A DNA stretch of 64,000 bases from Tomitella cavernea (GTDB lineage: Bacteria > Actinomycetota > Actinomycetes > Mycobacteriales > Mycobacteriaceae): the NCBI RefSeq assembly GCF_016599145.1, contig NZ_JAENKO010000023.1:1-64000 (forward strand). The letters run 5' to 3'. Both the position numbers and the translations under genes were made by a program. Shown piece by piece: positions 51,367-56,688 of this stretch. Every line of letters starts with the position of its first letter. The stretch's first letter is position 1. A model generated the notes under the pieces. The model had not been told where the DNA came from. It saw only the letters and a list, made by a program, of their open reading frames with translations, and searched no databases.

Positions 51367-52401
51367 ATGACCGACCAGATCGTCCAGAGCACCCGCATAG
51401 TCCTCGCATCCCGCCCGCACGGCGCCCCCGTCGAGGAGAACTTCCGGTTGGAGACGGCGCAACTGCCGCCGGTGGGGCGCGGACAGGTGCTGCTGCGGAT
51501 CATCTACCTGTCGCTGGACCCGTACATGCGGGGGCGCATGAGCACCGCCGAGTCGTATGCGGAGCCGATGGAGATCGACGACGTCATGGTGGGCGGCACC
51601 GTGGCGCAGGTGCTCGCATCGCGGTTCCCGGGCGTGGATGCCGGCGACTACGTGCTCTCCTTTTCCGGCTGGCAGACGCACGCGGTGGAGGACGGTGCAC
51701 GCGTGCGCAAGCTCGACGCCCGGCGGGCGCCGCTTTCCACGGCGCTGGGGGTGCTGGGCATGCCCGGATTCACCGCGTATGCGGGTCTGCTGGCCATCGG
51801 CAAACCGGTCGCGGGCGAGACCGTGGTGGTGGCGGCGGCCAGCGGGCCGGTCGGGTCGGTGGTGGGGCAGATCGCCAAGCTGCAGGGGGCGCGGGCCATC
51901 GGCATCGCCGGCGGGCCCGACAAGTGCGACTACGTGCGCGGCAGGCTGGGGTTCGACGAGGCCGTGGACCACCGTTCGCCCGAGTTCACGGAGCAGCTGG
52001 CCTACGTGGTGCCCGACGGGATCGACGTCTACTTCGAGAACGTCGGCGGCCCTGTGACGGACACGGTGCTGCCGCTGCTCAACACGTACGCGCGGGTGCC
52101 GGTGTGCGGGCTGGTGTCGCAGTACAACCTGCCCGGCCGCCCCGACGGCCCGGACCGGCTCCCCGCATTCATGAACTACGTGCTCACCAAGAGCCTGTCC
52201 GTCCGGGGGTTCATCCAGAGCGAGTTCGTCGACGAGTGGTATCCGGGCTTCCTGATGGACATGTCCGACTGGGTGCAAAGCAAACGGGTGCGCTACCGGG
52301 AGGACATCGTCGACGGGGTGGAGAACGCGCCGGCGGCGTTCATGGGCCTGCTGGAGGGGCGGAACTTCGGCAAGCTCGTGGTGCGGGTGGCGGAGGAGTA
52401 G
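51367..52401 (+). CDS. NADP-dependent MDR oxidoreductase (CurA/leukotriene B4 dehydrogenase type)
   Basis: The product has 344 residues. It has the family start STRIVLASRPHGAPVEENFRLE, then YLSLDPYMRGRMS, GMPGFTAYAGLLAIGKP, the nucleotide loop AAASGPVGSVVGQIAKLQGAR and the end LLEGRNFGKLVVRVAEE. Members reduce alpha,beta-unsaturated ketones or aldehydes with NADPH. It stands alone between two lower-GC islands and ends at a strong hairpin. Confidence 0.86.
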   Translation: MTDQIVQSTRIVLASRPHGAPVEENFRLETAQLPPVGRGQVLLRIIYLSLDPYMRGRMSTAESYAEPMEIDDVMVGGTVAQVLASRFPGVDAGDYVLSFSGWQTHAVEDGARVRKLDARRAPLSTALGVLGMPGFTAYAGLLAIGKPVAGETVVVAAASGPVGSVVGQIAKLQGARAIGIAGGPDKCDYVRGRLGFDEAVDHRSPEFTEQLAYVVPDGIDVYFENVGGPVTDTVLPLLNTYARVPVCGLVSQYNLPGRPDGPDRLPAFMNYVLTKSLSVRGFIQSEFVDEWYPGFLMDMSDWVQSKRVRYREDIVDGVENAPAAFMGLLEGRNFGKLVVRVAEE

Positions 52402-52482: not shown

Positions 52483-52991
52483 ATGTCCGGGGCCTGGCCT
52501 CGCGGGCGCACCTGAGTCGCGCCGGTGGCCGTCGGCGGCGACCGACACGCCCGGGCGCAGCGGTGCGGATGTCCGGATGGGACTGCCGGAGCGCATCCTC
52601 GGGCTGGCCGGTGTCCTGCTCAGGGCTACCCGCGCGTCCCATGAAGGGCGTGGTCAGCGTTGCAGACACCTGTCCAAATCCCAAGCGGTGCAACATGATT
52701 TAACGAACGGCCACCCTGATCTCGATTCGCCGCGGGGGCGGCAGATGCAACGTCAAGACTGGTCCGAACGGTTGGACCGGAACCTGTTATGGACGGCTGT
52801 GAACAGCGATGGTTTCAAAGAATTTTGACGCAAGAGGTTACGTGTTTCACCTGGTGGATGTACGGTGATCGGAACCACAACGAATCGCAGGACAAGGGGG
52901 TTCTTGTTGAACTGTGCCGGTGCCTTCGGGTATCGGACCGTTGCGAAGGTTTACCTAATTTGGGTAAGCCGCAATTGAATGAGGGAGTGTA
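52483..52991. other. Non-coding leader of the small-protein operon
   Basis: No credible gene is seen here. GC content falls from about 70% to near 50% from about 52660 onward. The stretch should hold the promoter of the downstream operon. A short inverted repeat TTACC-n6-GGTAA lies at 52951-52966, close to the start region, and GAGGGAG at 52981-52987 can serve as a ribosome site for the next gene. Confidence 0.45.
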
Positions 52992-53486
52992 CTGAGGCAT
53001 CGAGGTCTTTCTGCTGTCGGGGTGACAGCAATGATTGCGGGCGCAGGTCTTACGCTGGCGACGGCCGCATCTGCGGCGACGATCGGGGCGCCTGGTTCGG
53101 CAAGCGCCGCCGTACCCAACGCGAACAACCAGATGTGCGGCAACGCAGTGGCCGCCGGGAATGCCGCTGTGCAGGGGGTTTCGATCACCGCTTCGCTCTA
53201 CGATTCGAGCGGCGCGGTGGTCTTCGGTCCGCAGTCCACCGACACGGATGCCGCCGGCGCATGGTGTATCACCGGGAATTCCACGCTGGCAAACACGGTA
53301 CTTAACGGTGGCCACGTCGAGTTGTGCGCCACTCCGATGGCCGTCGACGGCAAGTCGGCAAACTTCCTCGGCTCCGGCACGAACTGCGCTGATCTGGATA
53401 AGGATGCGTTCCAGGACCATCTCTACACGAGTGTGATACCTCTGATCCTCGCATCGGCAGACGGTCTGGATGTGACCTACAGCTGA
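52992..53486 (+). CDS. Secreted four-cysteine protein, first gene of the small-protein operon
   Basis: The product is about 164 residues from a CTG at 52992 (RHRGLSAVGVTAMIAGAGL), or 154 from the GTG at 53022. The CTG start gives a proper Arg-containing signal peptide, cut near GSASAAVP, and has GAGGGAG five bases upstream; the GTG start leaves the signal without positive charge. The mature part of about 125 residues has four Cys (two possible disulfides) and a beta-sandwich look (VSITASLYDSSGAVVFGP, then TDAAGAWCITG). No family is recognised. Five tiny genes follow in the same direction, so an envelope role beside them is likely. Confidence 0.65.
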   Translation: MRHRGLSAVGVTAMIAGAGLTLATAASAATIGAPGSASAAVPNANNQMCGNAVAAGNAAVQGVSITASLYDSSGAVVFGPQSTDTDAAGAWCITGNSTLANTVLNGGHVELCATPMAVDGKSANFLGSGTNCADLDKDAFQDHLYTSVIPLILASADGLDVTYS

Positions 53487-53553
53487 GTTCGAGTTCCGCG
53501 GATGCACAGGTGACTTGTGCGCCTATTCACTCACAGGGCAGAAGGTAGGGTTT

Positions 53554-53679
53554 ATGTCAACAATGTTCCTCGGTAATACTGCGGAGATGCTCTCGCAGTT
53601 GTTGACCGCAATCTCGACGGGTTCAGTAGACCAGGGCTTTGAGGCATTCAAGGGCAGCGTGAACACGTTGAGCGCTTAG
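53554..53679 (+). CDS. 41-residue small protein 1 (PorA/PorH-like candidate)
   Basis: The ATG at 53554 follows GAAGGTAGGG by three bases. The protein is acidic to neutral, Ser/Thr-rich and without a signal peptide, with a hydrophobic face (EMLSQLLTAIS) and an amphipathic second half (VDQGFEAFKGSVNTLS). Size and character match the PorA (45) and PorH (57) channel proteins of Corynebacterium cell walls. Sequence identity to those cannot be judged by eye. It is the first of five such genes in a row. Confidence 0.6.
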   Translation: MSTMFLGNTAEMLSQLLTAISTGSVDQGFEAFKGSVNTLSA

Positions 53680-53726
53680 CTTCCGCTATCGCTGTGTAAA
53701 TTGTTTGCGCGAGAAAGGGGTTACGC

Positions 53727-53852
53727 ATGGGGTCATTGGGCTCAGTGGTAGATGCAGTAAACAGTCCGGAGTGGTCGATCATCAAGGTGTATGGAGCCTT
53801 GTTCACGATGCTTCCTTTGGTGGCATCGGTTGATTTCGACTGGAAGGCGTGA
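53727..53852 (+). CDS. 41-residue small protein 2 (PorA/PorH-like candidate)
   Basis: The ATG at 53727 is six bases after AAAGGGG (53714-53720). The protein starts MGSLGSVVDAVNSPEW, followed by a hydrophobic stretch IIKVYGALFTMLPLVAS and the end VDFDWKA. There is no signal peptide. It is probably one amphipathic helix with aromatic ends, as expected of a mycomembrane-associated peptide. It overlaps the ribosome site of the next gene, from which it is separated by three bases. Confidence 0.58.
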   Translation: MGSLGSVVDAVNSPEWSIIKVYGALFTMLPLVASVDFDWKA

Positions 53853-53855
53853 ATC

Positions 53856-54044
53856 ATGGCAGATGGCAGCATGGGCGCGCTTTCCAGTATTGACGCCGGC
53901 ACTCTGACGCCGGTGGCCACAGACTTCGGGAACATGGTCCAGGGCGCGTTCGCGGCGATTTCGGGATCACTCGGAGTGGCCGAGAGCGGATCGGTGGGAA
54001 TCGCGCAGTTGCTCGGTGCCGGCCTGGCCTCTATCGGCAACTGA
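53856..54044 (+). CDS. 62-residue small protein 3 (Gly/Ala/Ser-rich)
   Basis: The ATG at 53856 uses GGAAGG inside the end of the previous gene. The product is rich in Gly, Ala and Ser, with two hydrophobic segments (MVQGAFAAISGSLGV and VGIAQLLGAGLASIG) containing G-x3-G-like packing. There is no signal peptide and no cysteine. It is the largest of the five and resembles PorH-type peptides or small holin/bacteriocin-like proteins in composition. Confidence 0.65.
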   Translation: MADGSMGALSSIDAGTLTPVATDFGNMVQGAFAAISGSLGVAESGSVGIAQLLGAGLASIGN

Positions 54045-54058
54045 AGGGAGGGTGCAGC

Positions 54059-54172
54059 GTGGAGAGTTCACTTACGTATCTGTCTCAGATGATCTCGTTT
54101 GTCTCAGTGGATCTTACGAAGGTGCTGATCGGCTATGTTGACGGCTTGTCGTCCGATCCCGCCAACGGCTAA
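54059..54172 (+). CDS. 37-residue small protein 4
   Basis: The GTG at 54059 is seven bases after AGGGAGG, the best ribosome site of the set. The protein reads as an amphipathic helix (SSLTYLSQMISFVSVDLT, then KVLIGYVDGLS) with a polar tail. The motif YVD-L recurs in the next protein, suggesting common ancestry. It was found by reading between the longer frames. Confidence 0.55.
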   Translation: MESSLTYLSQMISFVSVDLTKVLIGYVDGLSSDPANG

Positions 54173-54197
54173 TCCTACCAACGGCTAAGGAGCGATC

Positions 54198-54287
54198 ATG
54201 TTGGAAAAATTCATCATGACGTACGTCGACCTGTCGGTCTCGTTGCCCAGCTTGATCGATTTGGGCAGTACGATGATGAACCAGTAG
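54198..54287 (+). CDS. 29-residue small protein 5
   Basis: The ATG at 54198 has AAGGAG five bases upstream. The protein begins MLEKFIMTYVDLSVSLPSL and ends with a polar MMNQ. A 10-bp direct repeat CAACGGCTAA at 54163 and 54179 spans the end of the previous gene and this gene's leader. The terminator hairpin follows 37 bases later. Being so short, it is supported mainly by its ribosome site, spacing and likeness to protein 4. Confidence 0.5.
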   Translation: MLEKFIMTYVDLSVSLPSLIDLGSTMMNQ

Positions 54288-54323
54288 GAGACGTGCCGTC
54301 GTGATTGCAGTCGCGACGAAAGC

Positions 54324-54355
54324 AGTGGCAGGGCCGGTCCACCGGCCCTGCCACT
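54324..54355. terminator. Terminator of the small-protein operon
   Basis: The 15-bp perfect arms AGTGGCAGGGCCGGT and ACCGGCCCTGCCACT are separated by only CC, then CTTCGCTTGT. It lies between the last small gene and the convergent reductase gene, so it could stop transcription from both sides. Confidence 0.8.
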
Positions 54356-54374: not shown

Positions 54375-56531
54375 TCACAGTCCCGCCGCCGCCTTCCAGG
54401 CGGTGTGGATGGCGCCTTCGATGTAGTCGACGGAGCCGGCGTCGCCGACCACGCGGACGTTATCAATCACTCCCGCGAGCTGCTGTTCCAGGGGTGCGGC
54501 GGCGTCGGTGCCGAGCGCGTAGATCACCATCGACGCGGGTGCGGACATCGTCTTGGTCTCGGTCGTCTTGCCCTTGCGGTCCTTGACAGCCACGTCGAAC
54601 TCCACGCGGTCCGCGGTGATCCGGGTGGCTTCGGCGTTGCGGTGGATGGTCACGCCGGCCTCGGTGGTGTGGCGTACCGCGGTCCAGCGCCTGGGTAGCG
54701 CCATCGGCAGGCCCAGTTGCTGCTCGTCGTGCAGCAGGGTGACCCGCCGGCCGCGCTCGGCGAGGAACTCCGCCAGCTCCAGGCCCACCAGCGAGCCGCC
54801 GATCACGACGACGTCCTTGCCCATCGGCAGGAACTTCTTGGTCACCTCGCGGATCAGGCGTGGGCTCTTGGTGATGCCGGAGAGCTTGCCCAGCTTGCCG
54901 GCGGCCCGCAGGTACCAGGACTGCCCGGCGGTGTCGCCCACACCGGTCATCAGCGCGCGCATGGTGTCGCCGGTGTGCACGTGCGGCAGGTCGCCGCCGG
55001 GGATCTGCGGGCGGTCCCGCAACGCGCCGGTGGCGAGCACGACGGTGTCCGGGCGCAGCGAGGAGATCAGCTCGGGGGTGGCCTCGGTGTTCAGCCGGAT
55101 GTCCACGCCCAGGCGCGCCGTCTCGTTCTTCAGCCACTCCAGCAGCGGATAGTTGGCCGGGGTGGTGAGCGCGGAGAACCACAGGGTGCCGCCGAGCCGG
55201 TCCGTCTTGTCCAGCACCGTCACCCGGTGCCCGCGCTCGGTGGCGATGCGCGCCGTCTCCAACCCTGCGGGCCCGGCGCCCACCACGACGATCCGCTTGC
55301 CCGTCTTCGCGGTGGGGAACGGCAGCAGCGTTTCGTTGCCCAGGGCCGGGTTGACCGCGCACAGCGGCGTCGCGTCCCAGAAGTTCTCCTGTACGCACAC
55401 GTAGCAGTTGATGCACGGCCGCACCCGTTCCGGCGTGCCGGCGCGCAGCTTGTTCACCAGGTCCGGGTCGGCCAGCAGCTGGCGGCCCATCGCGACGTAG
55501 TCGGCCTTGCCCTCGGCGATGGCCTGCTCGCCGACCTCGGGCAGCACCCGGCCGACGGTGACCACGGGGATCGTCACGGCCTGCTTGACGGCCGCAGCCA
55601 GGTCCACGTAAGCGCCCACCTGGTCCGGCAGCGGGCCGTCGGTGAAGTTGGAGAACGGATTGCGGCCCCACCCGGTGACATCGATGGCGTCGGCACCCGC
55701 CTTCTCAAACATCTGCGCCGCCGCAGTGGCTTCGGCGGTGCTCAGGGCATTCGGTTCCTCGGTGCCGCCGAACTCCCTGCCGGAGACGCGCACCAGGATC
55801 GCCAGGTCCTCGCCCACGGCCTCCTTGACGGCCGCGATGACCTCGCACGCGAAGCGTGCCCGGTTCTCCAGCGAACCCCCGTACTCGTCGGTGCGGAAGT
55901 TGTCGGCCCGGCTGAGGAATCCGCTGAGGATGTAGCCATGCGCGCAATGGATCTCCACCGCGTCCGCGCCGGAGGTGCGCACCCGCCGCGCCGCGTCGGC
56001 GTAGAGGCGGGTGATCTCCGCGATCTCCTCGACGGTGACCTCGTGGTAGCTCGCCTGCTTGCCGCCGGTGACGGCCGCCATCTTGGCCAGCTCGCCGGGC
56101 GTGTTGTCGGCCAGCGCGCTCAGGTCCATCTTCTGGCGCGGGGTGGACGGCACCTGCAGGGGACGGTCGTCGACGGTGTCGATGCGGGCGACCTTGCCGT
56201 GGTGCACCATCTGGATGCACAGCTTGTTCCCGGTCTCGTGCACCGCGTCGGCCAGCGCCGTCAGGCCCGGGATGAACTTGTCGTCCGACAGCCCCGGCTC
56301 CTTCTTGCTGGTGCTGCCTACCGGGTAGCCCACCGAGCAGCAGCCGGTGATGATCATGCCGGTGCCGCCGGCGGCCCGCGCGACGAAGTGGTCGATGTCC
56401 TCCCGCTCCACCACGCCGTCCGCGGACAGGTTCATGTCCATCGCGGACATCATCACGCGGTTGTTCAGCTGCACCGGGCCGATGCGGCCGGGGCTGAGCA
56501 GGTGGGTGTAGGTCTGAGTCTTCGTCGCCAC
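54375..56531 (-). CDS. 2,4-dienoyl-CoA reductase-type NADH:flavin oxidoreductase
   Basis: The product has 718 residues. The N-terminal Old Yellow Enzyme barrel binds FMN (RVMMSAMDMN, GADAVEIHCAHGYILSGFLS, VTVGRVLPE). Cysteines C-x2-C-x3-C-x11-C in RPCINCYVCVQENFWDATPLC hold a 4Fe-4S cluster. The C-terminal FAD/NAD(P) module opens VVVGAGPAGLETARIA. This is the FadH/trimethylamine-dehydrogenase architecture, which reduces dienoyl or enoate substrates. The GTG at 56531 (ATKTQTYTHLLSPGRIG) is the probable start; the open frame continues upstream. Confidence 0.85.
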   Translation of the reverse strand: MATKTQTYTHLLSPGRIGPVQLNNRVMMSAMDMNLSADGVVEREDIDHFVARAAGGTGMIITGCCSVGYPVGSTSKKEPGLSDDKFIPGLTALADAVHETGNKLCIQMVHHGKVARIDTVDDRPLQVPSTPRQKMDLSALADNTPGELAKMAAVTGGKQASYHEVTVEEIAEITRLYADAARRVRTSGADAVEIHCAHGYILSGFLSRADNFRTDEYGGSLENRARFACEVIAAVKEAVGEDLAILVRVSGREFGGTEEPNALSTAEATAAAQMFEKAGADAIDVTGWGRNPFSNFTDGPLPDQVGAYVDLAAAVKQAVTIPVVTVGRVLPEVGEQAIAEGKADYVAMGRQLLADPDLVNKLRAGTPERVRPCINCYVCVQENFWDATPLCAVNPALGNETLLPFPTAKTGKRIVVVGAGPAGLETARIATERGHRVTVLDKTDRLGGTLWFSALTTPANYPLLEWLKNETARLGVDIRLNTEATPELISSLRPDTVVLATGALRDRPQIPGGDLPHVHTGDTMRALMTGVGDTAGQSWYLRAAGKLGKLSGITKSPRLIREVTKKFLPMGKDVVVIGGSLVGLELAEFLAERGRRVTLLHDEQQLGLPMALPRRWTAVRHTTEAGVTIHRNAEATRITADRVEFDVAVKDRKGKTTETKTMSAPASMVIYALGTDAAAPLEQQLAGVIDNVRVVGDAGSVDYIEGAIHTAWKAAAGL

Positions 56532-56688
56532 GATCAAAGAGTAGGCGCACCTCCCGGCGAGGATGAGCAGGTTTTCGATCACCAGGAACACGGACGGGCC
56601 GGGGCCGCGGTGCGTGCGCGCGGCGCGCAGGCGACAGCCGCCGCGCGCAGCAGGTCCGCCGTCGGTCATACCCGGTCATACTCGTGGT

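Follow-up and report, generated by a model that had tools for sequence, protein, structure and literature searches.

A conserved operon of five small peptides without export signals in Tomitella cavernea and Rhodococcus relatives, probably encoding a channel of the mycolic-acid outer membrane

A two-peptide channel of the mycomembrane is formed by PorA and PorH of Corynebacterium, two different acidic, Cys-free and amphipathic alpha-helical peptides of 45 and 57 residues in C. glutamicum, which are encoded together, lack a presequence (PMC3792995) and are O-mycoloylated on serine. Mycoloylation sites are Ser, less often Thr, placed among Ser, Gly and small residues without a strict motif (PMC11066868), and Ser15 of PorA lies in an interhelical loop (PMC11927696). 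The porH-porA pair is located between groEL2 and a polyphosphate kinase gene (PMC5944148), and an AlphaFold2 model composed of five PorA and five PorH has been published. A closed ring with a hydrophobic outside, an acidic lumen and Ser in one lipid-facing belt has been reported for PorA-PorH (PMC12632848). ProtX of C. glutamicum, described as a single small protein, is also helical, signal-less, mycoloylated and surface-exposed (PMC9671496, PMC12632848), and it is a probable phage receptor, while PorA is needed for infection (PMC9671496). The export route used by PorA, PorH and ProtX is unknown (PMC12632848), and how such peptides reach the mycomembrane and form pores has been studied almost only in Corynebacterium. 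In contrast, the MspA-family porins, such as PorARc, PorARr and PorBRr of Rhodococcus, are proteins of about 20 kDa with Sec signals and beta-strands (PMC9233653). A small channel subunit of 8.4 kDa has also been described from R. erythropolis (Lichtinger, Reiss and Benz 2000), which represents an untested lead, since its sequence was not compared here and whether its gene is known was not established.

A stretch of 64,000 nucleotides of Tomitella cavernea (GCF_016599145.1, contig NZ_JAENKO010000023.1, positions 1 to 64,000), hereafter the window, carries six consecutive genes on the forward strand, for which the original prediction had proposed a larger, multi-peptide version of the PorA/PorH system. 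The observation itself was confirmed, since all six ORFs were found at the predicted places. The first encodes a secreted protein of 164 residues (52992-53486), with a CTG start behind GAGGGAG at 52981-52987, the first ATG/GTG/TTG start being the GTG at 53022. It is followed by five small ORFs, named here b1 (53554-53679, 41 aa), b2 (53727-53852, 41 aa), b3 (53856-54044, 62 aa), b4 (54059-54172, 37 aa, with a GTG start) and b5 (54198-54287, 29 aa), and the gaps along the six genes are 67, 47, 3, 14 and 25 bases. A scan of the entire window for small ORFs poor in Arg, His, Cys and Pro, containing Ser, Gly and Thr and preceded by a ribosome site returned only six ORFs, these five and one artefact inside fadH. 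Some details of the prediction required correction: the ribosome sites, claimed to be good for each gene, are moderate (4-6 matching bases) and not uniformly good, and only two of the four Cys of the secreted protein are conserved in its family. Moreover, the hairpin at 54324-54355, described as a perfect terminator, is indeed a perfect 14-bp stem (fold –41.9 kcal/mol, z –6.6) between the operon and the convergent fadH and might be a bidirectional terminator, but it has no T-run and does not pass the terminator scan. The operon is flanked on the left by an NADP-dependent oxidoreductase gene (51367-52401, forward strand) and on the right by a gene for a FadH-type 2,4-dienoyl-CoA reductase (54375-56606, reverse strand), both named from sequence character and not from a family search.

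The conservation of the frames and of the gene order in relatives had been named in advance as a condition that the prediction should fulfil, and both were verified. A single-protein scan of genome contigs found nothing and an alignment query found only Prescottella equi, but in another genome of the window's genus (G002) the whole order, from the secreted protein to b5, is present at the same site, where a transposase-like ORF (L003:2299-3333) lies just upstream of the secreted-protein gene and is possibly relevant to cassette exchange. Profiles of b1-b4 then revealed the set at 23 loci, so that b1 and b2 have homologues at 22 other loci of this type (type B), and the ORF directly after b4 proved to be b5 at every one of the 23, with gaps of median 48, 41, 17 and 15 bases. 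In nine informative genome pairs, dN/dS of the concatenated peptides was 0.15-0.40, and synonymous change exceeded amino-acid change gene by gene in nearly all cases, the b5 value of one pair (loci L150 and L151) being void because a wrong ORF had been taken there. These findings are strong evidence for five translated and selected genes. The b3 profile hits 23 of 401 genomes of the family, in 3 of 31 genera, namely the window's genus, a genus containing Prescottella (g10) and a large-genome genus (g35) taken here to be Rhodococcus, the genus labels other than Prescottella being inferred, and the b4 profile found nothing else in a sample of 200 genomes of the order. One genome, G054, is Prescottella equi (NZ_LWTX01000002.1).

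A sister version of the system was found in a third species of the window's genus (genome G003), in which the same chromosomal site, with flanks 98.5% (oxidoreductase) and 95% (FadH) identical, carries the secreted protein followed by a different set of four peptides, a1-a4 (type A). Type A occurs near the secreted protein in about a dozen loci of the Prescottella, Rhodococcus-like and related genera. Two further clusters of secreted protein plus four peptides (L054:2998-4221 and L055:5661-6627), both in one genome (G141) that also has a type-A and a type-B operon and thus harbors four related clusters, bridge the types. Profile comparison revealed that their peptide c1 matches b1 (77%) and a1 (69%), c2 matches a2 (89%) and c4 matches b5 (88%), while a4 matches b5 (51%), against a shuffled-control maximum of 6.4%, although the c profiles rest on two sequences each. 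So types A and B look like versions of one system with equivalent first and last positions, the second position being less certain (a2-b2 only 6.4%), and b3 is the extra peptide of type B. Two other genomes, G001 and G004, lack an operon at the fadH site. The exchange of whole cassettes between nearly identical flanks is inferred to be typical of surface structures.

None of the six window proteins gave a match above cut-off in Pfam, NCBIfam, PHROGs or PADLOC, Pfam had nothing for eight relatives either, and neither peptide set is in Pfam. Matches to a holin (PF04971, E 0.03) and to rodlin (E 5.7) were below cut-off and were discarded, and PDB searches with the profile of the secreted family, the b3 profile and PorA gave nothing useful. 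All the peptides are Cys-free and no signal peptide is apparent, since the families are nearly free of Lys and Arg in the first 8 residues, as judged from composition and not with a dedicated program. With 29-62 residues, the window peptides match PorA and PorH in size. Families b1-b4 are acidic, with mean net charges of –2.4 to –4.7, as are PorA (–3.7) and PorH (–6.4), while b5 is acidic in the window but basic in most relatives. The helical hydrophobic moments exceed those of shuffled sequences (mean z 0.8-2.5, in comparison with 2.1 for PorA and 2.6 for PorH) with no beta periodicity, the resemblance being weaker for a3 and b4. The b3 peptide alone was modelled, without an alignment, as helical (helices at 6-10, 14-39 and 49-61, the central one of 26 residues, pLDDT 66), and the peptides were not modelled together.

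Serine accounts for 12 of the 34 invariant columns, against 46 of 363 consensus columns (p = 3e-4), and each of the nine families has at least one invariant Ser, as expected of O-mycoloylation sites, although lipidation was not assayed. The b1 family has an invariant GS (S24 of the alignment), b2 has two invariant Ser and b3 has invariant Ser at alignment positions 5 and 12, while b4 presents a conserved VDL...LxxLS and b5 a conserved M(L/I)xxY/F...GSxxl.

The profile search against PorA and PorH, which had also been proposed beforehand as a check, came out against sequence homology. The best profile-profile probability was 3.9%, against a shuffled-control 95th percentile of 4.4%, and another direct comparison was equally negative at this sensitivity. 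The C. glutamicum query sequences, which were not taken from a database record, agree with the papers in their lengths and in Ser15 and Ser56, and they retrieved homologues in the expected place. The operon therefore works, in the reading favored here, like PorA/PorH, from which it differs in having five or four peptides instead of two and a secreted partner in some clusters, but it is not shown to be a member of that family. ProtX was not compared by sequence.

In relation to genomic context, the groEL side of the porH-porA neighborhood was recovered in the Corynebacterium loci, and in eight g35 genomes the b1-b5 operon lies within about 4 kb of the orthologous groEL2, whose product is 80-85% identical to the Corynebacterium protein. 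This proximity is loose (1.6-3.3 kb, in varying orientation) and the eight genomes are related, so it represents one suggestive coincidence and not eight. In the window genome the operon is not next to groEL2, which lies on another contig with no such peptide detected after it. Nevertheless, other signal-less small ORFs of the same character are enriched downstream of groEL2 in several genera, with 17 in 54 kb (0.31 per kb) against a background of 0.040 per kb that itself contains real ones. For example, Ser/Gly-rich ORFs of this kind were found downstream of groEL2 in genome G007 (L205, on contig C1), with four arranged as two related pairs starting 343 bases after groEL2, in G001 (three, L192) and in G002 (two, L193), together with a 46-residue family conserved across five Prescottella-group genomes (L196-L200).

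The presence of other channel proteins was also examined. The window genome (G000), G001 and G002 have no MspA-family match, similarly to G007 and the two Corynebacterium genomes tested, while G003, G004 and the Prescottella and Rhodococcus-like genomes do have one, so that in the latter two groups the operon coexists with MspA porins. Moreover, all nine genomes tested, including that of the window, have a DUF3068 candidate channel protein (PF11271), the family of the C. amycolatum channel protein (PMC5944148). Consequently, the operon need not be the only channel of the window organism, and no need for a further porin is proved.

The interpretation offered in the original prediction was thus partly supported, and the channel-peptide idea is the best-supported reading. 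What the analysis demonstrated is the existence of five co-conserved genes under purifying selection, the chemistry of their short, signal-less, Cys-free and mostly acidic products with helical amphipathic periodicity, their invariant serines, the genomic context and the related four-peptide set that can stand at the same site with the same secreted partner, whereas export, mycoloylation, oligomerization, pore formation and the role of the partner are inferences, with no proteomic, lipidation or conductance data at hand. In this view, held with moderate confidence, the operon encodes a five-peptide complex for the mycolic-acid outer membrane, whose peptides would be exported without a signal by the route used by PorA, PorH and ProtX, mycoloylated on the invariant serines and assembled as a hetero-oligomeric helical channel, the idea being based on the published AlphaFold2 model of PorA and PorH, while the secreted protein would act in the periplasm or at the cell wall as an assembly, anchoring or adapter partner. 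The absence of MspA in G000 and G002, as in Corynebacterium, and the exchange of cassettes at one site, which fits a surface structure, are consistent with this reading.

The main alternative, considered possible but rather unlikely, is a lipidated structural or anchoring peptide set that is not a pore, comparable to ProtX, with helices held in the mycomembrane and tied to the cell wall and the secreted protein as the wall-side partner. The same chemistry, invariant Ser and cassette exchange would fit it, MspA porins are already present in the Rhodococcus-like genomes carrying the operon, and CnaB-like folds are common in surface proteins. However, four or five different co-conserved helices in a fixed order look more like a hetero-oligomer than a coat, and G000 and G002 lack MspA. 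A complex of small cytoplasmic-membrane proteins or regulators that stays inside the cell is very unlikely: small signal-less membrane proteins are common in bacteria and export is not shown, but the helices are amphipathic rather than uniformly hydrophobic, the type-A set is regularly linked to a secreted protein, the system is restricted to a few genera of the family and whole cassettes are swapped at one site.

Leaderless bacteriocins, such as aureocin A70 and cereucin V, which had been named as the main alternative, are also short, signal-less, amphipathic and encoded in tandem (PMC6131525), but this explanation was weakened and is very unlikely. The window peptides have pI 4.05-4.23 and charges of –2 to –4, whereas leaderless bacteriocins are cationic, with pI of about 11 and charges of +3 to +4 for the cereucin V peptides (PMC6131525). 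Multi-peptide leaderless bacteriocins come with transport and immunity genes, and no immunity or transporter gene adjoins the operon, whose immediate neighbors are two metabolic enzymes, 98% and 87-95% identical in the two related genomes with an operon at this site. In addition, the peptides are conserved under purifying selection over three genera, and plasmid searches with a relative's b3 peptide and a relative's secreted protein returned no match.

The secreted protein has a signal sequence, and its family keeps two Cys and a V.GV.VT..LY.S......TTT.A.G.YC core. Seven of 16 members match CarboxypepD_reg (PF13620, best 3e-5) and three match SdrD_B, but the window protein itself gave no match. 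A low-confidence model made from the single sequence, without a deep alignment, is beta-rich and closest to CnaB2 and transthyretin folds (E 0.03 and weaker), so a CnaB/transthyretin-like beta-sandwich is probable, but profile and fold together leave the assignment undecided. It is not an obligate part of the peptide operon, since most type-B loci outside the window's genus lack it nearby, and it goes regularly with type A. In P. equi DSM 20307, this gene appears split by a frameshift (L043:4815-5375), while the four type-A peptides downstream are intact.

If the channel reading is correct, an operon of five such peptides in Rhodococcus-like bacteria and Prescottella, including P. equi, would extend that type of channel to other genera and give a natural comparison set, type A against type B at the same chromosomal site. 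It is absent from the family libraries searched and not described in the papers found, although supplementary data and subscription papers were outside the literature search and earlier mention elsewhere is not excluded. It also offers candidate genes for small channel proteins isolated biochemically from rhodococci and shows a class of genes missing from the standard libraries. A more far-reaching possibility, only tentatively held, is a new class of mycomembrane channel built from five different signal-less helical peptides, as one branch of a fast-diverging group of small lipidated peptides that has PorA/PorH as its Corynebacterium branch, is found around groEL2 in several genera of the family and is exchanged as cassettes at the cell surface, with a dedicated secreted beta-sandwich assembly factor in some clusters.

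Other genes recur in the vicinity of these operons. A WS/DGAT-family acyltransferase gene (PF03007) lies near most type-B operons (L141-L145, L147, L148, L152, L153, L157-L159 and others), and one lies downstream of groEL2 in G002 beside two small peptides and a secreted PF00756 esterase, the Pfam family of the antigen 85 mycoloyltransferases. Beyond the WS/DGAT gene, two more small signal-less ORFs (MGSLMDILGG... and MLEGSVMDAAG...) were observed at L148:783-1175, L157:1129-1521 and L159:8684-9076, which resemble peptides downstream of groEL2 in G001. Finally, b3 starts with GTG in 22 of the 23 loci (ATG in the window, at 53856), while b1 and b2 always start with ATG, possibly a translation-level setting of subunit ratio.
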